Virus record (IMG/VR): IMGVR_UViG_3300021181_000439 | Location: 1-47,846 of that record | Source of the DNA: a virus | Length of the DNA stretch: 47,846 bases | Reading direction: 5' to 3' (one strand) | Shown: piece by piece, positions 1 through 18,578 of the stretch | How the letters are laid out: the number at the start of each line of letters is the position of its first letter | Numbering within the stretch: position 1 is the first letter of the stretch | Notes under the pieces: model-generated | What the model was told of the DNA's origin: nothing | The model's input: only the letters and a program-made list of their open reading frames with translations | The model's database searches: none | Translations under genes and position numbers: made by a program

Positions 1-1110
1 ATGTCCAAGTTGCACATGACGGATATCGTTGTGTCGCGGCTCAAGGACTGCGGCACCTACTGGGACGAAACAACACCCGCGTTCGGTTTGCGCGTCGGTA
101 AAAATCGCAAGACGTGGTTCGTCATTCGTGGTCGCGAGAGGTTGCGATCAAATATCGGTCAGTACCCTTCAGTGGGGCTCGCGGAGGCTCGCAAGGAAGC
201 CAGGAAGCTTCTCACCGAAGAACCCGTGAAGGGCGACCGGATAACTTTCAATGCGGCATACGAGCTGTTCAAGGAATCAATAAAATCCAAGAAGCCCAGG
301 ACGCAGCACGACTACAAGCGAGTGATCGAAAAGCACCTGCAACCCGTTCTCGGTTCCAAGAAGCTCTCTGAAATCGAATACGACCAGATTACCCGCATCA
401 CCGACAAGCTGGCGATCAGCGAGAAACGGAACACCCTCGCGGTGGCCCGTACGTTCTTTCGCTGGTGTCTAAAGCCCCCTCGCCGGTACATCAAGCACTC
501 CCCACTTGAGGGCGTCGAGCTACCAAAACCCAAGCGGCGGAAGCGCATCTTGGACGAAACGGAACTTTTGACCGTCTGGCAGGCGTTGCAGGAACAGGGG
601 TATCCTCACGGAACGGTCTGCCAGCTACTCGCCACCACCGGCCAACGCAGGGGTGAAATAGCCAACCTGCGCCGGCCTTGGATTAACGAGCGCGACCGTA
701 CGATCACACTACCCGAATGGCTGACCAAGAACTCACGGGAACACACTTTTCCTTATGGGGATCTCGTTGCGGGCATTCTGGAGAGTATCCCCCGCCGGAA
801 TGATACGGACCTGCTCTTTCCCTCGGAAGTCTCGACCGAGCGGCCGCTCTCCGGATGGAGCAAATACAAGAAGCAGCTCACGGACGGCCTGCCCAACTGG
901 ACCCTCCATGACCTTCGGAGAACCTACAGGAGCATGCATGGCCAGATCGGTACGCCTTCTGACATAGCCGAGCGCCTCATCAACCACGCTGCTGCGGTGC
1001 AAACAGAAGTAGAAGCGATATACGATCGGTGGAACTATTTGCCACAGATGCGGATGGCGGTTCTCAACTTCGAGAGCCACCTACAGGTGCTTTTGGCCCG
1101 CGCAGCTTAG
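1..1110 (+). CDS. int: tyrosine-recombinase integrase
   Basis: This is a 369-residue site-specific recombinase of the phage/ICE integrase class. Residues 1-70 match the arm-binding domain (WDETTPAFGLRVG, then a NIGQYPSVGLAEARKEA-type segment). Residues 75-165 fit the SAM-like core-binding domain. The catalytic domain shows R217 (TTGQRRGEI), K243, H303 and R306 (HDLRRTYR), H329 (LINHA) and the probable nucleophile Y341 (IYDRW). All catalytic residues are present, so it is probably active. It stands first in the window and is followed by its own terminator and the excisionase-like gene, which is a normal lysogeny arrangement. The upstream region, and so its promoter, lies outside the window. 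Confidence 0.96.
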   Translation: MSKLHMTDIVVSRLKDCGTYWDETTPAFGLRVGKNRKTWFVIRGRERLRSNIGQYPSVGLAEARKEARKLLTEEPVKGDRITFNAAYELFKESIKSKKPRTQHDYKRVIEKHLQPVLGSKKLSEIEYDQITRITDKLAISEKRNTLAVARTFFRWCLKPPRRYIKHSPLEGVELPKPKRRKRILDETELLTVWQALQEQGYPHGTVCQLLATTGQRRGEIANLRRPWINERDRTITLPEWLTKNSREHTFPYGDLVAGILESIPRRNDTDLLFPSEVSTERPLSGWSKYKKQLTDGLPNWTLHDLRRTYRSMHGQIGTPSDIAERLINHAAAVQTEVEAIYDRWNYLPQMRMAVLNFESHLQVLLARAA

Positions 1111-11493: not shown

Positions 11494-11583
11494 ACTCTTT
11501 GCTCTTTTCTAGCATCTTTACCGGCGCGCCCACTTGCAATAGGCAGCACACTGAAAGAAGCGGTCGTCGGAAAAGAGGACACC

Positions 11584-12198
11584 ATGCGATATCTGATTTT
11601 ACTTCTACTAATCTTCGCCGATGTCGGAATAGCGAAAGCCGGGCAAACGACGTGCAAACTGTCGCCCGACTTCTCCTTGCTGAAGGATTTTGACACAGCT
11701 AACCCAAGCAACGCTAACTCTTGGGCGTTGCTTTATAAAGGCCGCGTTATTTACCAGATCGATCTCCATGATGTCTATGGCGGCGCAGGGCCGCCATTCG
11801 ATTGTTCAAACATTGTTGTAAATCGCGACAACTTCGGTTTGATAGTGGGACATGAAAATGATCTTCTCATTGCAGTCGGAATAGCGTCCGGGGCACATGG
11901 TCCGACGGCAATTAATCTCCTGCATTATTACCCCCACGACGGGCGTATGAGACTCGCGAGCGACGGCGACAGCCTCCTTTTGACGTGGGGTGAAGAGAGC
12001 GATTTGACCACGAGGCTATGCTGGAGTCCTAATAACGATAATCACTGGTGGCATGTCGATAATCACCAAACTGGCGGCCACTTCGCAGGTTGCACTAGGT
12101 CCGATTGGATTTGGCATCAAGGCAACACGACTGGTGTGTGGGGTACCGATCCGAGCAAAGATCATTCTCGGATAGACCACATAATTCAAATCGAATAA
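11584..12198 (+). CDS. secreted protein, cargo gene
   Basis: The 204-residue protein has a signal peptide (MRYLILLLLIFADVGIAKA) and a Trp/His/Asp-rich mature region (NNDNHWWHVDNHQTGGHF, SDWIWHQGNTTGVWG). A Shine-Dalgarno (GAGGA) precedes the ATG. No family recognised. It looks like a single-gene insertion expressed by the lysogen, acting in the periplasm or at the surface. Pairs of Cys could form disulfides. Confidence 0.65.
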   Translation: MRYLILLLLIFADVGIAKAGQTTCKLSPDFSLLKDFDTANPSNANSWALLYKGRVIYQIDLHDVYGGAGPPFDCSNIVVNRDNFGLIVGHENDLLIAVGIASGAHGPTAINLLHYYPHDGRMRLASDGDSLLLTWGEESDLTTRLCWSPNNDNHWWHVDNHQTGGHFAGCTRSDWIWHQGNTTGVWGTDPSKDHSRIDHIIQIE

Positions 12199-12258
12199 TC
12201 CTGCAGATAATGCGCTTCCCTGAACGGTTACTGAATACGGCTTCTACGGTGTGCTAAG

Positions 12259-12332
12259 ATATAGTCGTATCAGCTAGCCCGTTCGAGTGTGCGCCTTTGC
12301 GGCTAGCGGGGCGCACGTTCGAGCGAATATTT
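12259..12332 (+). promoter_or_regulatory. -10 and folded leader for the gene at 12333
   Basis: TATAGT (about 12259-12264) is followed by a leader. GTGCGCC/GGCGCAC and GCTAGCC/GGCTAGC can form alternative hairpins, and CGTTCGAG occurs twice. There is no Shine-Dalgarno near the ATG. Confidence 0.4.
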
Positions 12333-12623
12333 ATGGATTATGAATTAGCGAAGCAGTTGAAGGATGCAGGGTTTCCGCAGAAAGAACCGAATGGATTTAG
12401 TGGTCTCCTCGCGCACGTAAAGGGTAATGCCGATGACAGCACGTATTATCCCACCCTCGAAGAACTCATAGAGGCGTGTGGCGACCATTTCTTCACACTT
12501 GAGCTTCGTAACGGCGGATATAAGCGTTGGGAAGCGCACGAGGCCTACTACAATAACCATCATGACGGCTCAACCCCCACCGAAGCCGTAGCGAGGTTGT
12601 GGCTCGCACTCAATGCAAGTTAA
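12333..12623 (+). CDS. small phage protein, paralogue of the 6777 protein
   Basis: The 96-residue protein (MDYELAKQLKDAGFPQKE, then YPTLEELIEAC and TPTEAVARLWLALNAS) shares its ends and centre with the protein at 6777. Its middle differs, which indicates an old duplication or repeated acquisition. Function unknown. Confidence 0.8.
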   Translation: MDYELAKQLKDAGFPQKEPNGFSGLLAHVKGNADDSTYYPTLEELIEACGDHFFTLELRNGGYKRWEAHEAYYNNHHDGSTPTEAVARLWLALNAS

Positions 12624-12657
12624 GCAGGGGGCTATCGCTAGCTTGACCGACGTTTGG

Positions 12658-13011
12658 CTAACAAACACTTTCTTTCACGCCCGCGGGATGGCAACCATCA
12701 CGTGGCGGAGGCGTAGGCGTAGGACATCCTGATGCCGGCCCGACCAACGTCCCTCCACCAGGTACAACGGTCACAGTGCAATCTTGCGGAGGCTTTGGCA
12801 CTCCCAAGCGAGCTAGGCCACTTTGTTTCACGACTCCGTCGCAGACAACCTCAAAAATAGTACATCCGTTGAGACATTCCGCTTCAGTGTAAACCGGATA
12901 CGTGCCGCTAGCACCGCTGCACTGACATGCCTGACAGGTTTGGGCAGTTGCACTTGTGTTGAGAGCGGTTGCAATGAGAACAAATAAGGCAGTCGCCACG
13001 CCCCTAAGCAT
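12658..13011 (-). CDS. secreted Cys- and Pro-rich protein
   Basis: The 117-residue protein starts at the ATG after AAGGGG on the minus strand; a GTG two codons earlier is possible. A signal peptide (MLRGVATALFVLIATALN, to about residue 24) precedes a domain with at least nine Cys (CQACQCSG, CLNGC, VVCDG, DCTVTV). A Pro-rich tail (CPTPTPPPRDGC) follows. It is probably disulfide-bonded outside the cytoplasm. No family recognised. It lies antisense just before TerL. Confidence 0.65.
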   Translation of the reverse strand: MLRGVATALFVLIATALNTSATAQTCQACQCSGASGTYPVYTEAECLNGCTIFEVVCDGVVKQSGLARLGVPKPPQDCTVTVVPGGGTLVGPASGCPTPTPPPRDGCHPAGVKESVC

Positions 13012-13065
13012 GTTCACACCCCTTCGTTTTTCGTGCCGTACCTAGAGGTTACAAGAGGTTCCTGA

Positions 13066-13071
13066 TACAAT
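13066..13071 (+). promoter_or_regulatory. extended -10 (TGA-TACAAT) for terL
   Basis: The hexamer ends 12 nt before the ATG at 13084. The 5' UTR would be about 5 nt, with no Shine-Dalgarno. Confidence 0.6.
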
Positions 13072-13083
13072 CAACGATATTGT

Positions 13084-14529
13084 ATGAATGAGACCCTCCA
13101 GCTTGAGCGTCTCGTAGACGACCCGGAAATCCGGCGCGCAGCGGCCAAGACCCTCAAGGGCTTCTGCCTCACCTACCTTCCCCACCACTTCCCGCTCGAA
13201 CTATCCGACTTCTTCGACGAAATGTGTCAGGCACTTGAGGACTTCGCCCTCAAGCGCGTGGAGATGATCGGGTTTCGTGGTTGCGCCAAATCCACGCTCG
13301 CCTCGCTCGCCCTTCCGCTCTGGGCAGCGCTTGAACACCCGGAGCTGTATCCGTTCATCATTCTTCTAGCCGACACACGCGGCCAGGCCAGCATCAACGC
13401 TGCTAGCGTCCAATACGAGCTGCGCAACAACGACCCGATCCTCAGGGATTACGGCCACCTCAAATACAAGAAGATAGACGACCCGCGCCCGGAGCCGACG
13501 CTGGAGAGCGACGAGGACTGGCAGGCGATGAACTGCGTCCTCGACAATGGCGTCCGTATCCTCTCGCGCTCCCGCGGCCAGAAGGTGCGCGGTGTCAAGC
13601 ACCGCCAACATCGTCCCAAGCTTGTTATCGCCGACGACGTTGAGGGATTGGACTGGGTTCGCACACAGGAGAACCGCGACAAATCGGACAGGTGGTTCCG
13701 CGGCGACGTACTGCCGTCAATCGACGAGAACGGCCGCGCCGTCCTCATCGGCAACTGGCTGCACACCGACGGCCTTATGGCCAGGCTCAAGAACACCGGG
13801 ATCTTCACCGTCCTTGAGTTTCCGCTTCTACGCGAAGGCGACGGCACCGACATCGAGCGGTGCACGTGGAAAGCCAAATACCCGACACAGGAAGCGATCG
13901 ACCTCAAACGGCAGGAGCTAGGGGACATCGGCTTCCGCCGCGAGATGCTGTTGCAGGTCGTGCCGGAGGAAGGCCAGGACGTTCTACCCGAAGACATCCA
14001 CTATTACGACGATCCGCCTTTCGACGATGGTAACTACCTCGCCCACGGCGTTGACCTCGCGATTAGCACGAAGGAAAGCGCTGACTACACGGCTATCGTG
14101 AGTGGGGAGGTCACGTGGCCTAATGGCAAGCTGGAAATCTATGTCCAGCCACATCCGATCATCAGGCACATGAACTTCAGCGATACGATGACCGCGCTCG
14201 ACAACGTGCGGCATTCGACCACGATGAGCAGCGAGTTCTTTGTCGAAGCCGTTGCCTACCAGCAAGCCGCTATCGAGGAAATGGAGCGCCGAGCGTTCGC
14301 TGTCACGCCGATGCACCCGATCAAAGACAAACGAGCCCGACTTCGCGTCGCGGCACGCTACATCAAAATGGGCATCGTGAAGTTTCCAAGGGCAGGATGC
14401 GAGCAGCTTATGACGCAGCTACTTGGGTTTGGCAGCGAGAAGCACGACGATGCGGTTGATGCGCTTGTCTACTTGATTTTGGGGTTGGTTGGTGATGGGA
14501 TTGAGGCACAGAAGGTCCACTACATATGA
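13084..14529 (+). CDS. terL: terminase large subunit
   Basis: The 481-residue protein is the packaging motor. The ATPase domain shows Walker A GFRGCAKST (63-71) and Walker B LVIADDVE (180-187). The RNase-H-like nuclease domain shows HGVDLAIS (D324), with a further acidic cluster KHDDAVDALVY (about 453-462). It cuts concatemeric DNA and drives it through the portal. The last 22 codons are present a second time at 14854-14922, which indicates recombination at its 3' end. Confidence 0.96.
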   Translation: MNETLQLERLVDDPEIRRAAAKTLKGFCLTYLPHHFPLELSDFFDEMCQALEDFALKRVEMIGFRGCAKSTLASLALPLWAALEHPELYPFIILLADTRGQASINAASVQYELRNNDPILRDYGHLKYKKIDDPRPEPTLESDEDWQAMNCVLDNGVRILSRSRGQKVRGVKHRQHRPKLVIADDVEGLDWVRTQENRDKSDRWFRGDVLPSIDENGRAVLIGNWLHTDGLMARLKNTGIFTVLEFPLLREGDGTDIERCTWKAKYPTQEAIDLKRQELGDIGFRREMLLQVVPEEGQDVLPEDIHYYDDPPFDDGNYLAHGVDLAISTKESADYTAIVSGEVTWPNGKLEIYVQPHPIIRHMNFSDTMTALDNVRHSTTMSSEFFVEAVAYQQAAIEEMERRAFAVTPMHPIKDKRARLRVAARYIKMGIVKFPRAGCEQLMTQLLGFGSEKHDDAVDALVYLILGLVGDGIEAQKVHYI

Positions 14530-14530
14530 C

Positions 14531-14770
14531 CTAATCGCTGTCGATATTGAACGAAAACGTGTCGCCGTCCTCGATACCAACTTCACCAAGTAGTTCGTCC
14601 CTGACATATACCTTGCAAGACACATGATGACCTGACGGTTCGAATGTTGCCCAACCGTCGCTATCTGTAAACTCTTCCAGCCAGCCACCTAGCGAGTCGA
14701 AACTAACGCTAACCTTTATATCCGAAACCCCATCTCCATCTTCGTCGATAATTCGTATTGAAAATTCCAT
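14531..14770 (-). CDS. small beta-sandwich cargo protein
   Basis: The 79-residue protein (IRIIDEDGDGVSDIKVSVSF, then TDSDGWATFE) looks like a single carboxypeptidase-regulatory or Ig-like beta-sandwich domain, with an Asp-rich first loop that could bind calcium. A GGGAG Shine-Dalgarno lies upstream on the minus strand. It sits antisense between terL and a second copy of the terL 3' end, so it is exchangeable cargo. Function unknown. Confidence 0.6.
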   Translation of the reverse strand: MEFSIRIIDEDGDGVSDIKVSVSFDSLGGWLEEFTDSDGWATFEPSGHHVSCKVYVRDELLGEVGIEDGDTFSFNIDSD

Positions 14771-14820
14771 GGTTGCGCTCCCAATATTTCCACGCTTCCA
14801 CCAAATCAGAGAGAGACAAG

Positions 14821-14922
14821 TGCCACACTTAAAGCACCTCTAAGCTTGCTTCCTCGCTGGTTTATCTCATTCTTGGTCTGGTTGGAGATGGGATTGAGGA
14901 GCAGAAGGTGCATTACGTTTAG
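14821..14922 (+). pseudogene. terL 3'-end remnant with a portal-promoter-like sequence
   Basis: Positions 14854-14922 encode SLVYLILGLVGDGIEEQKV and end HYV-stop. This matches the TerL C-terminus (ALVYLILGLVGDGIEAQKV...) apart from the first residue, E for A near the end, and V for I at the last position. Many synonymous base changes separate the two, so it is a diverged homologue rather than a fresh duplication. Just upstream, 14825-14838 is identical to the 14 bp before the portal gene (15499-15512), within a 26-bp match of about 22 positions. Together they are scars of a second terL-cargo-portal junction. Confidence 0.85.
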
Positions 14923-15493
14923 CACGCACCGCCGCAATTGTCGTTGCCAGCTGTTCACGGTTCGCGCGCCCTGACTGCGGAAAAAGATTGCGAGCAATTA
15001 TGTACAATAGCCCAATAAACTGGATGGGGGTCTCAACGATTAAAGCCGTGATCGCCGTACCGGTTATTCCCCATTTTTCGATGCTGTTGAAGACAATGAT
15101 GCCATACGAAAGTAGCGTGAAAAATATCGTTGCAACTAGAAACGCAACACCGAATTGCTTCTTTAAGCTCCGATCAAGCTCATTCGAGAGCATAAGGTCG
15201 AAAAGATGCGGATCAATCCCGGCCTGCGACAGCTCTTGGAGGAGACCGAGTTGAGTTTCTCTTACACCAACCTCTGTTCTTTCGGCCTTTTCCGTTGAAA
15301 ATCGGACGCCTGAAACACCCGCTACATCTAGCGAAACGTTGGCTAGCGCCTTAACGATCGGCCCGAGTGATGCGCGATGACGCGCCCAAGCATTTGCCTC
15401 GCGGAATTTCTTCGTCTCTTTCGGTTCGTCAGTCACTTCGCCCTCGCTGGCACGGTAGTATCCCCACTCGCAGCTAAATTTGGGTAGACGCAA
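14867..15493 (-). CDS. two-TM membrane protein, cargo gene
   Basis: The 208-residue protein has a soluble N-terminal half (residues 1-115) and two hydrophobic segments (about 120-140, VAFLVATIFFTLLSYGIIVF; about 148-170, ITGTAITALIVETPIQFIGL). A basic tail follows. The two-TM layout recalls the 2-TM modules that accompany signalling or exclusion proteins, but identity is not proven. It is antisense in the late region, and its 3' end overlaps the terL remnant. Likely superinfection-exclusion or other lysogen cargo. Confidence 0.6.
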   Translation of the reverse strand: MRLPKFSCEWGYYRASEGEVTDEPKETKKFREANAWARHRASLGPIVKALANVSLDVAGVSGVRFSTEKAERTEVGVRETQLGLLQELSQAGIDPHLFDLMLSNELDRSLKKQFGVAFLVATIFFTLLSYGIIVFNSIEKWGITGTAITALIVETPIQFIGLLYIIARNLFPQSGRANREQLATTIAAVRAKRNAPSAPQSHLQPDQE

Positions 15494-15497
15494 ATGC

Positions 15498-15503
15498 TAC
15501 ACT
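15498..15503 (+). promoter_or_regulatory. extended -10 (TGC-TACACT) for the portal gene
   Basis: The hexamer ends 12 nt before the ATG at 15516, the same spacing as at terL. No Shine-Dalgarno. Confidence 0.6.
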
Positions 15504-15515
15504 TAAAGCACCACT

Positions 15516-17861
15516 ATGCCTCGCATCTTCCGCGCGATCGGCGACGAATTCAACGACAGATTTAGCCGCAAAGACACGGCACCCGTCAATACTTTTGAGG
15601 GGTTTACCTCTGCCGGCGCCGTCATCGTCCGCGACCGCCGCGGCACCCTCAAAGCCGAAATCCCGAACGTAAGCGAGAAGTCCGAAACCCTCGGCAACGA
15701 CCCGCTCGCGATCTACAAGCCATCTGGCGCAAAGACAGTCGATGCCGCCAAGGCGATGAGCAACTTCACCGGCTGGACGTTCGCGGCCGTGAACGCCATT
15801 GCGTCTGAAGTCGCCAACATCCAATTCCGGCTCTACCAGATAGCGGGAGACGATCAGGAGGAGCTGGATGACCATCCCCTCTTGACGCTCCTCGAAGGCG
15901 TCAATGAGACGATGACCGGCATCGAACTCAAGTACGTCACGATGGCGCACTTGGAGCTGACCGGCAATTGTTACTGGCTTCTTGACGGAGTGAAGAACGA
16001 TACCGACCCACCGCGCGCGATCTACCCGCTCAATCCTGGTCGCGTAAAGGTGAAGCTAAACAAGGACAGCTTCCCGTACAAAATCGACCACTACGAATTC
16101 ACGATCGACGGCAAGGTCTATCACTTCCAGCCGTATCAGATCCTGCACATCAAATATCCCGACCCGAGCGACCCATTTGTCGGCATCGGCGTCCCGCAGA
16201 CAATTCCCGTCTGGATCGACAGCGACAACTACGCGATGGAATACAATCGCAAGTACTTCCTCAATGGCGCGCAGATCGGCCTTTACGTCCAAAGCGACAC
16301 GAACGTCGAAGGAAACATCGAGCGCATCAAGCGCAGCATGCGCGACGGATACGGCGGCGTGGAGAACGCGCACAAAATCCCTGTCATGCCTAAGGGCGTG
16401 AAGCTCGAACACACTGGCGTCACGCACAAGGACATGGACTTCCAGAACCTCGCAGAGACCACGCGCGACCGCATCTTGGCCGGCTTCCGCGTCTCGAAAA
16501 CCATCCTCGGCACTGCTGAAAGCGATACCAACCGCGCCACCGCCGAGACGGCCGACTACGTATTCAGCAAGCGAACGATCAAGCCGAAGATCGAACTTGT
16601 CCTGTCCTATCTCAATGAATTCTTGGCACCGAGATACGGCGACGATCTGTACCTCACGTTTATTGATCCGGTGCCAGAGGACAAAGCGTTCCGCACGCAG
16701 GAAATGCAGGCGACCGTCGCCAGCATGCCGCTCATGACCCAGAATGAGGCACGCCAGAACTACCTTGGTCTTGGTCCGATCTCGGGCGGGGAGCAGCTCA
16801 TGCGCCCCAGCACAATGCAGCCGGCCGGCCAGACGATTGAGCCAGAGGGCGACGACCTCTCGCCCGAAGCCGAGCCATCCGGCGGCAAGCAGCCCCCCAC
16901 TCCCGAAAAGCTCTTCCGGCGGCAGGCCAAGACGGTAGAGGGTTGGCAGGCTCGCCCGATCCGCGTTCGCACGGGGGGAAAATCGGAGCACAGCGCGTCA
17001 GCCGAGATGCGCCGGGCGCTCACCGATGCCTTCACGAAGCAGCTCGATAAGACACCGGCATTTCAGGTCAAGAGCATCAAGGACCTCTCCCATGCCGAAT
17101 ACATGGAGCATTGGAAGCGGTTTTCAGACCGAACCGAGCGAGCGGTCGAGGATCTCCGCAGGGTCTTCAAAGGCATCAACGCCAAGCAGCGAGAAGACGT
17201 AATCGCGGGTCTACCCGAGACGACCGGCGTCACCAAAGACCTGGACGACCTGTTCGACCTCAAGGAGTGGATCGGCATCACTATCGACCTCGCCACGCCC
17301 ATCCTTACGTCTTTGACGAGAGACGAAGCCACGGCCGCCCTCGCCATGATCGGCGCCCAGCATCAGGACATTCTCGCTAACGACGGAGTACGAAGTGCCC
17401 TTGAGCAGGGCATCTCCAAAATGGCCCGCAGTTATAACGAGACGACGCTCGACAACCTCAAGACCGTCCTCACCGAGAAGCTCGCTCAGTCCGGCGGTAC
17501 AAACCTCACCGAACTGACCGAGGCAGTTGACGGCGTTTACAGCTTCGCAGATACGCGCCGCGCTGGATTGATCGCCAAGACCGAGAGCTTCCGCGCGTCG
17601 AACCTTGCCAACAAAGACGCTTGGCGGCTAAGCGGCGTCGTTCAGACCGTGAAATGGTATACAGCGGAAGACGCCAAAGTATGCGAGTTTTGCGAGGCCC
17701 AGGACGGTAAAGAGATCGGCATCGAAGACAATTTCTACGATGGCGGAGACGCGATCGAGGGCGCGAACGGCAAGATTATGACCGCTGAATACGGCGATAT
17801 CGAAGCGCCGCCACTTCATCCGGATTGCAGATGCTATATCCGCCCTGCTACTATCGGTTGA
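15516..17861 (+). CDS. portal protein fused to a MuF-like head morphogenesis domain
   Basis: The 781-residue protein has an HK97-type portal part (residues 60-420: GWTFAAVNAIASEVANIQF, YPLNPGRVKVK, ILHIKYPDPSDPFVGIG). A linker follows, then a C-terminal MuF domain (about 650-781) with TVKWYTAEDAKVCEFCEAQD and PPLHPDCRCYIRP, the Cys/His signature of that family. The portal forms the dodecameric DNA channel; MuF proteins are head-associated and often separate genes. The fusion is known in some phages and saves a gene here. Confidence 0.93.
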   Translation: MPRIFRAIGDEFNDRFSRKDTAPVNTFEGFTSAGAVIVRDRRGTLKAEIPNVSEKSETLGNDPLAIYKPSGAKTVDAAKAMSNFTGWTFAAVNAIASEVANIQFRLYQIAGDDQEELDDHPLLTLLEGVNETMTGIELKYVTMAHLELTGNCYWLLDGVKNDTDPPRAIYPLNPGRVKVKLNKDSFPYKIDHYEFTIDGKVYHFQPYQILHIKYPDPSDPFVGIGVPQTIPVWIDSDNYAMEYNRKYFLNGAQIGLYVQSDTNVEGNIERIKRSMRDGYGGVENAHKIPVMPKGVKLEHTGVTHKDMDFQNLAETTRDRILAGFRVSKTILGTAESDTNRATAETADYVFSKRTIKPKIELVLSYLNEFLAPRYGDDLYLTFIDPVPEDKAFRTQEMQATVASMPLMTQNEARQNYLGLGPISGGEQLMRPSTMQPAGQTIEPEGDDLSPEAEPSGGKQPPTPEKLFRRQAKTVEGWQARPIRVRTGGKSEHSASAEMRRALTDAFTKQLDKTPAFQVKSIKDLSHAEYMEHWKRFSDRTERAVEDLRRVFKGINAKQREDVIAGLPETTGVTKDLDDLFDLKEWIGITIDLATPILTSLTRDEATAALAMIGAQHQDILANDGVRSALEQGISKMARSYNETTLDNLKTVLTEKLAQSGGTNLTELTEAVDGVYSFADTRRAGLIAKTESFRASNLANKDAWRLSGVVQTVKWYTAEDAKVCEFCEAQDGKEIGIEDNFYDGGDAIEGANGKIMTAEYGDIEAPPLHPDCRCYIRPATIG

Positions 17862-17880
17862 GAGGCCTGATCGCTAGGGG

Positions 17881-18519
17881 ATGCGCGTGGGAAAAATTCT
17901 CGAAACAGTCATCATAGCCAGCTTGGTGGGTCTGCTGATTTCTGGCAGTTGGGAATTGATAAAAGGTCCATTTCTGGAACTCAAATCGGGTTACAAAGCC
18001 TTGATCGGCGCGAGCATCGCCAGCGCTGCATTGGCTCTGGCTTACCTTGCAAGCCTTCTTCCTGAGACTGAGCAAACGCATTTTAAGATTCCGATACCCA
18101 TTCCTCACTTTTCTGGCTCACCTGTAGTCATCGAACAAATAACTTTGACTGCAAAGGCTCATGTTCCAGCAAGCATCATGTTTGGAGTAATAGTTGCTGC
18201 ACTAGCAATCTCCGATACGCTGAAGAAGCTGCAGAAAACCATTCCTCCATCGATTGCGAACCCTCCGCAATCTCTATTCAGACGTTTCGCTGAAAGTCCA
18301 TTATTTTTATATCCGGCCCTGGCACTCGCTTACAAGACGTTTCTTCTCGAACAGACAAGTCCAAACTTTTGGTCAGGGTATGTTGTCGTATCTTCAATTT
18401 TAGGCGGCCCTGTCTATTCACTTCTCGAACACGACACCTTTTCCATCGGCCGCATAATCGCGATTGTCGCACTCGGTTTCTTGTTAGCTGCGGTGATCGC
18501 GCTCGCCGCTTTTTTCTAA
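17881..18519 (+). CDS. multi-pass membrane protein, cargo gene
   Basis: The 212-residue protein has about five hydrophobic segments (near residues 8-24, 43-60, 97-112, 138-150, 155-172 and the last 25 residues). The ATG abuts AGGGG, so the GTG two codons later (17887) may be the true start. The gene is AT-richer than its late-gene neighbours and is not a known head gene. It is likely inserted cargo acting at the host membrane. Confidence 0.6.
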   Translation: MRVGKILETVIIASLVGLLISGSWELIKGPFLELKSGYKALIGASIASAALALAYLASLLPETEQTHFKIPIPIPHFSGSPVVIEQITLTAKAHVPASIMFGVIVAALAISDTLKKLQKTIPPSIANPPQSLFRRFAESPLFLYPALALAYKTFLLEQTSPNFWSGYVVVSSILGGPVYSLLEHDTFSIGRIIAIVALGFLLAAVIALAAFF

Positions 18520-18563
18520 ACCCCTATCCACTGCAACCTGCTAACACCGCGTCACTCCAATGC

Positions 18564-18569
18564 TATCAT
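18564..18569 (+). promoter_or_regulatory. extended -10 (TGC-TATCAT), leaderless
   Basis: The hexamer ends 9 nt before the ATG at 18579. The box ATCCACTGCAACCT lies 38 bp upstream (18526). Confidence 0.65.
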
Positions 18570-18578
18570 TAAGCGCAT

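Follow-up and report, generated by a model that had tools for sequence, protein, structure and literature searches.

We analyzed the junction between the genes for the terminase large subunit (terL) and the portal protein in a virus contig of 47,846 nucleotides (nt) (IMG/VR record IMGVR_UViG_3300021181_000439, positions 1 to 47,846; this whole stretch is hereafter the window). Both packaging genes lie on the plus strand and are intact: terL at 13084..14529 (PHROG 38, terminase, E = 4.9e-63; the TerLs of 16 relatives are 60-89% identical to it) and the gene for a portal protein with a Mu F-like C-terminal domain at 15516..17861 (Pfam Phage_portal, E = 9.6e-54, and Phage_Mu_F, E = 1.9e-11). After terL with its own tail come, in order, an antisense gene (cargo 1), a decayed copy of the portal leader, a displaced second copy of the terL 3' end, another antisense gene (cargo 2), and the live leader ahead of portal. 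An earlier inspection of the letters without database searches (the sequence-only reading) had noticed the two antisense genes, the second TerL end, and a repeat of the portal-promoter sequence, and had taken recombination between two related phages, each with a different cargo at this junction, as the simplest explanation. Such recombination proved to be the best-supported core of that reading, given the near-synonymous differences between the two tails and the closest match of the displaced one in another phage; missing from it was the likely driver, namely, homing endonucleases that accompany displaced tails at the same junction.

The displaced tail (14854..14922, plus strand) comprises codons 460-481 of terL (SLVYLILGLVGDGIEEQKVHYV) followed by the stop codon. 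A tblastn search of the window's own record gave no match other than the real terL and 14848-14919 (E = 4.5e-7), and 62 nt of the copy align with the resident tail at 77%. When each of 62 distinct junctions was searched for a second copy of the terL end, this copy scored 105 vs 42 for the highest reverse-strand control, in agreement with the earlier claim of a diverged, in-frame second TerL 3' end. Resident and displaced tails differ at 17 of 66 nt and at only 3 of 22 residues. In simulations, 17 random changes caused 10.8 amino acid changes on average and a stop codon in half of the cases, and none of 50,000 runs yielded as few as 3 amino acid changes. Because the differences are almost exclusively synonymous, these sequences indicate that the two tails evolved apart within working terL genes of different phages before being brought together. 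The displaced tail is most similar to that of relative L012 (0.83), vs 0.74 to the terL of its own genome. One of the two tails is foreign.

The portal leader in use (15457..15515, plus strand) consists of a box (TATCCCCAC) at 15459, an extended -10-like element (TGCTACACT), and a dyad. The TATCCCC motif of the box is found 52-62 nt upstream of the portal ATG in the window and in 16 of 16 close relatives, where it forms the right edge of the junction inserts. The decayed copy (14783..14845, plus strand) retains a box, TATTTCCAC (14785-14793), and the -10-like and dyad region; it is identical to 15457-15519 at 41 of 63 positions, vs 30 of 63 for the second-best position in the window, and its nearest counterpart among the relatives is the leader of L003 (0.85 over 34 nt). 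The promoter repeat of the sequence-only reading (14825-14838, equal to 15499-15512) is part of this longer 63-nt copy; the window has exactly two occurrences of the 14-mer ACACTTAAAGCACC (chance expectation 0.11 even when two mismatches are allowed). In the copy, TATTTCCAC stands in place of TATCCCCAC, with two changes and the -57 spacing kept, and the portal ATG has become AAG at 14842; because of these changes to box and start codon, the copy is most likely dead as a leader, judging from its sequence. Leader homology stops at about 14845 and terL homology starts at 14854, leaving a novel joint at 14846..14853.

The dyad over the -10-like element just upstream of the portal start (window 15493-15518) was compared with the portal leaders of L001, L005, L016, L018, and L019. 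The arms vary between phages yet stay complementary (GGTGCT/AGCACC, CTTGCAT/ATGCAAG, GCGTGCT/AGCACGC, and GTGAT/ATCAC). The dyad may be a phage-specific operator, and the mRNAs may be nearly leaderless. The start of terL (about 13056-13086) has a similar layout, TGATACAATCA. The TATCCCCAC box with an extended -10-like element is also found ahead of another start codon (L002:1716) and therefore may serve more generally as a promoter element in these phages.

Cargo 1 (14531..14770, minus strand) encodes an acidic protein of 79 amino acids predicted to form an all-beta domain with an immunoglobulin/CnaB/transthyretin-like fold. Its AlphaFold2 model (predicted local distance difference test score, pLDDT, 78) has seven strands, and the best Foldseek match, 3e8v (E = 2e-4), is followed by CnaB- and transthyretin-like folds; Pfam gave two weak, sub-threshold matches, DUF7382 and CarboxypepD_reg. 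A single homologous family (53% identical) was found, in L006/L010, again behind a displaced tail, and the phages collection contained no homologues. Cargo 2 (14867..15436, minus strand) encodes about 189 amino acids with two membrane-helix-like stretches. Its open reading frame (ORF) extends up to a TTG at 15493, the likely start being the GTG at 15436 with a ribosome-binding-site-like stretch before it; the last 17 codons or so are the antisense reading of the displaced terL tail, inside which the frame ends. The AlphaFold2 model of cargo 2 is poor (pLDDT 47), the protein has no Pfam, PADLOC, or informative PHROG match, and no homologues were found in the viral_contigs, phages, or plasmids collections. 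The two cargo genes thus differ, as the sequence-only reading held, and have no detectable relation to each other. Scans for sigma-70 promoters and terminators of the cargo genes gave results near chance level, and Rfam and tRNA scans produced no matches. PADLOC, applied to 10 proteins, recognized no defence gene and gave a single weak match to a TPR protein; among these proteins, the slot thus lacks the recognized anti-phage systems that mark an antiviral hotspot of the P2/P4 type.

TerL searches of viral contigs yielded 16 close relatives with a readable junction, and searching with portal brought in a clade farther removed, whose portal identities mostly lie around 38-50%. In the close clade, all inserts lie between the terL stop and the TATCCCC box. 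The slot is variable: in 15 of the 16 relatives it holds 0.3-1.9 kb of inserted genes in sense or antisense orientation, most of them not related to those of the other phages, and that of L019 is empty, with 55 nt between terL and portal. The contents include HNH genes, a GIY-YIG-like gene, a nucleotidyltransferase fragment, a TPR protein, and small membrane-protein-like and secreted-looking proteins. Several relatives have two or more genes in the slot, the slots of L002 and L017 contain internal leader-like boxes, and an HNH or GIY-YIG-like gene is present at this junction in five relatives. With unrelated genes in one slot and an empty allele, the features of a moron-type hotspot, the terL-portal junction is, by sequence comparison, a true site of recurrent insertion. 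The hotspot postulated by the sequence-only reading is therefore real, but it is not unique, given that the terS-terL junction and that between portal and the next gene vary too. That reading also looked to single-cargo alleles among relatives, as opposed to a pair shared by all of them. The pair of cargo 1 and cargo 2 is absent from every one of the 16 close relatives (0/16), but a clean single allele of cargo 1 or of cargo 2 was not found among them either.

At the terS-terL junction (window 11494-13083), the gene upstream of terL abuts terL in L008, L011, L018, and L019, and elsewhere 0.15-2 kb of other genes intervene; in the window, this junction holds an antisense gene (12658-13017) for a cysteine-rich, secreted-looking protein. 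The junction after portal measures 2-4 nt in L003, L006, L007, and L011 and 630-720 nt in the window (17862-18578), L001, and L004. No displaced tails were found at the terS-terL junction, and nothing convincing in the way of a tail duplication was found after portal, where a portal-tail-like match in L004 is weak. Among the relatives, the portal frame of L008 is interrupted twice, the first time near its start (L008:3619-4436), and the nucleotidyltransferase cargo of L005 stops early (L005:1538-1759); either sequencing errors or decaying genes would account for these breaks. An integrase gene at window positions 1-1110 (PHROG 1, E = 9.4e-50) indicates that the window phage is temperate. The only hint of a host comes from a genome scan that found one distant TerL, in a metagenome-assembled genome of Peribacteria: the contig L023 (JAHFJM010000006.1), binned as Candidatus Peribacteria, encodes a TerL 49% identical and a related portal protein, and may be a mis-binned virus.

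Besides the window, the scan of the 62 junctions detected displaced tails in L006/L010 and L100 and a weaker, probable one in L089; a further candidate, L101 (score 45), was rejected on inspection. In L006/L010 and L100, which belong to two different clades, terL is followed by an HNH gene and the displaced tail comes directly after the HNH stop; in L006, the cargo 1 homologue lies downstream of this tail. The L006-type scar is present in two metagenomes (L006 and L010). The displaced tail of L006 resembles those of L008/L002, its near relatives by the TerL body, and nothing matches its resident tail above 0.68. Likewise, the displaced tail of L100 matches L098, the nearest relative by the TerL body, and its resident tail is closest to that of L055, another HNH carrier. 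Both L006 and L100 thus show the signature of a native displaced tail and a foreign resident one. A scan for the HNH family added L143, an unrelated phage with a terL-like gene, an HNH gene, an 11-codon repeat of the terL end, and a portal-like gene, in this order. Most relatives have no remnant at all, and the lengths and partners of the remnants vary between loci. In loci that carry endonucleases, the terL tails are more divergent (permutation p = 0.0025; 12 loci, HNH and GIY-YIG-like mixed), which, given the small and mixed sample, lends weak support to the endonuclease link.

The junction HNHs belong to the Pfam family HNH_3 (PF13392; E = 1.4e-8 for L003 and 1.6e-12 for L006). At 70 of 80 loci of this family, a longer ORF, in most cases with intein ends, encloses the HNH gene in a different frame. 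In at least 36 of these inteins, the insertion point immediately follows HDD or HDDx, and PHROGs identified the host protein as TerL in 10 of 10 cases tested. The HDD|/HDDx| site is nuclease motif III of TerL, which in the window phage reads H454-D455-D456|A457-V458-D459-A460 (codons at 14443..14463, plus strand; putative homing site D456/A457, 14451|14452). Motif III TerL inteins with an other-frame HNH are found among L114-L188 (for example, L117:1280-3694 and L120:1027-3366). Published mycobacteriophage TerL inteins are located in the ATPase domain (PMC5050341), and the motif III inteins seem to constitute a separate, common class. The displaced tail starts at codon 457 in L006 and 460 in the window, 0-3 codons past the HDD| site, and the inteins are inserted at 456|457 or 457|458; the HDD of motif III is absent from every displaced tail, as expected if the downstream piece starts at or after a motif III cut. 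From the family members inside TerL inteins at this position, we infer that the HNH enzymes cut near motif III of terL.

Cultured phages contain related HNH genes both inside terL (Tetrasphaera phage TJE1) and between terL and portal (PAE1 and Shemara, neither of which has a displaced tail). In Lactobacillus phage CL2 (L191, 506-2850), terL is split in the manner of an intein (HN|C), and in Exiguobacterium phage vB_EauM-23 (L190, 1077-3130), it is split at motif III. In both, the annotated terL stops early and the C-terminal piece (CMDATRYFV... and CDATRYAM..., respectively) lies beyond the HNH gene; by sequence, the interruption looks intein-like in CL2 and intron- or intein-like in vB_EauM-23, and the annotations show neither. 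The same HNH family may thus occur at this one terL site in three forms: free-standing behind terL, out of frame within TerL inteins, and, in cultured phages, as an insertion that splits terL.

That the scar in the window arose by recombination of two related phages with different cargo in the same slot is well supported by these sequence comparisons. As for the trigger, we consider it moderately likely that a break at motif III, probably made by the homing endonuclease of a co-infecting phage, was repaired from a relative with the other cargo. The ancestral recipient would have been a phage with cargo 2 whose terL suffered a break at or immediately behind the motif III codons (HDDAVDAL) by an HNH homing endonuclease of the junction/TerL-intein family, supplied by a co-infecting phage or by a gene since lost. 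The upstream end would have been extended by copying the cargo 1 donor, through the terL 3' end, cargo 1, the portal leader, and the first portal bases, and would then have been joined to the broken downstream end with no resolution by homology; the downstream piece would start inside the terL tail and run into cargo 2, leader, and portal. Repeated breaks would keep the slot recombinogenic, and the turnover of cargo would result from such recurrent endonuclease action.

Several observations weigh against this scenario. No HNH of the junction family is present in the window, so that for this phage we infer the endonuclease step from its relatives. In the close clade, terL is mosaic along its whole length, with a correlation of r = -0.13 between the distances of its halves (divergent loci left out), and recombination is therefore not confined to motif III. 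For the same reason, a tail-specific phylogenetic conflict was discarded as proof of a motif III break: the correlation with the TerL body drops toward the 3' end, but the gene is mosaic everywhere. The displaced tails of L100 and L089 start some 8-12 codons farther downstream, and trimming must be assumed for them. The mean similarity to the tails of the clade is 0.71 for the displaced and 0.66 for the resident tail of the window, a small gap that does not clearly identify the native one. Finally, the collections searched yielded no allele with cargo 2 alone.

The main rival explanation, and the one that the sequence-only reading had offered, dispenses with the endonuclease: plain unequal (illegitimate) recombination between co-infecting relatives, with a crossover between the portal start of one and the terL end of the other. 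It fits the foreign, diverged tail copy and the lack of an HNH gene in the window, it draws on short matches (ATGC and CGCT) common to the portal start and the terL tail near the joint, and it owes its standing above all to the rampant recombination along the entire terL. Yet it leaves unexplained why displaced terL tails recur in several lineages, why the tail starts just past motif III and, in L006, L100, and L143, such tails directly follow HNH genes, and why they were not convincingly found at the neighboring variable junctions. We regard this explanation as possible but doubtful. A tandem duplication, within this phage, of the terL end and the portal leader, followed by decay and later gain of one cargo, would produce the observed direct repeat of both flanks, one with a decayed leader; the near-synonymous tail differences, which point to divergence while terL was functional rather than during decay, contradict this candidate, and the displaced tail is closer to that of L012 than to that of its own terL, so that we hold a duplication to be highly improbable.

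The extra tail and leader could also have been kept for a function, for instance as the coding end of cargo 2, whose last residues the displaced tail now encodes in antisense, or as an antisense control element. However, neither the start codon nor the full box survives in the leader copy, the remnants vary in length and in their partners from locus to locus, and most relatives do without any remnant, all of which makes retention for function very unlikely. An assembly chimera of two co-occurring strains has to be considered for a single environmental virus contig with an exact junction seen once; however, at only 74% identity the tails are too dissimilar to mislead an assembler, and the same type of structure is present in L006 and L010 from two metagenomes. 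We therefore consider a chimera exceedingly improbable. The break at motif III followed by repair from a relative remains our preferred account of the scar.

The arrangement has its closest parallel in fungal mitochondria, where mobile endonuclease ORFs (mORFs) replace the 3' end of host genes: atp6 in Allomyces macrogynus and atp6, atp9, cox2, and nad3 in Glomus sp. (PMC3630166). In these, a foreign in-frame C-terminus and an endonuclease ORF precede the displaced native C-terminus; the differences between the two are mostly synonymous, and the displaced one matches close relatives (PMC3630166). The layout of L006, L100, and L143 is the same for phage terL, the differences being that the fungal enzymes are LAGLIDADG or GIY-YIG endonucleases, whereas those analyzed here are HNHs at terL of bacterial viruses. 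A displaced, in-frame host-gene 3' end follows the insert in the window as well (14854-14922). However, an endonuclease gene is part of the insert in L006/L010, L100, and L143, whereas the insert of the window consists of non-endonuclease cargo and the leader of the next gene; because its insert lacks an endonuclease, the window scar was not classed as an mORF.

Free-standing phage HNH homing endonucleases, such as the T4 mob genes (PMC2988022) and the I-HmuI-like HNHs of Skunavirus (PMC12724721), and out-of-frame 'hidden' HNHs, as in the ShiLan element (PMC11855218), are likewise patchily distributed between conserved genes, with known co-conversion of flanks and with family members encoded out of frame within an insertion element; the distinguishing features here are the proposed target, TerL motif III, and the displaced-tail scars and cargo exchange. 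Skunavirus genomes all encode HrdP, a GVE2-like packaging HNH that is also located between terL and portal and is thought to act in packaging (PMC12724721), whereas the junction HNHs described here are of the HNH_3 type, are missing from most relatives, and occur in association with displaced tails. The defence loci of P2/P4 prophages are cargo hotspots for which a role of cos ends has been the subject of speculation (PMC9122126). They and morons share with the terL-portal slot a short site between conserved genes in which unrelated genes replace one another at a high rate, at times with two or more in the same slot; unlike the P2/P4 hotspots, this slot contains no defence genes recognized by PADLOC and does contain a candidate break-making enzyme. 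In phage T6, the homing endonuclease SegB drives segmental amplification (PMC13096335), so that there, too, endonuclease activity yields tandem gene arrangements able to carry useful genes, but copies of one segment are amplified in T6 and two different alleles are joined here.

Displacement of gene tails by mobile endonucleases, TerL inteins, and cargo hotspots in phages are already known separately. In the open-access literature, we found no report of displaced terL tails as scars of motif III HNH homing with cargo exchange as a by-product. On how cargo slots stay fixed in place while their content changes, the P2/P4 study could offer only speculation (PMC9122126). Displaced terL tails provide a countable mark of past breaks that points to one site and one enzyme family. 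We tentatively suggest, as a possibility that falls short of being probable, that motif III-cutting homing endonucleases are a general engine of terL-portal cargo exchange in temperate phages, with enzyme-free phages reshuffled by co-infecting carriers and the displaced tails serving as the fossil record of these events. If so, the breaks through which passenger genes pass from one temperate phage to another would be the work of selfish endonucleases.

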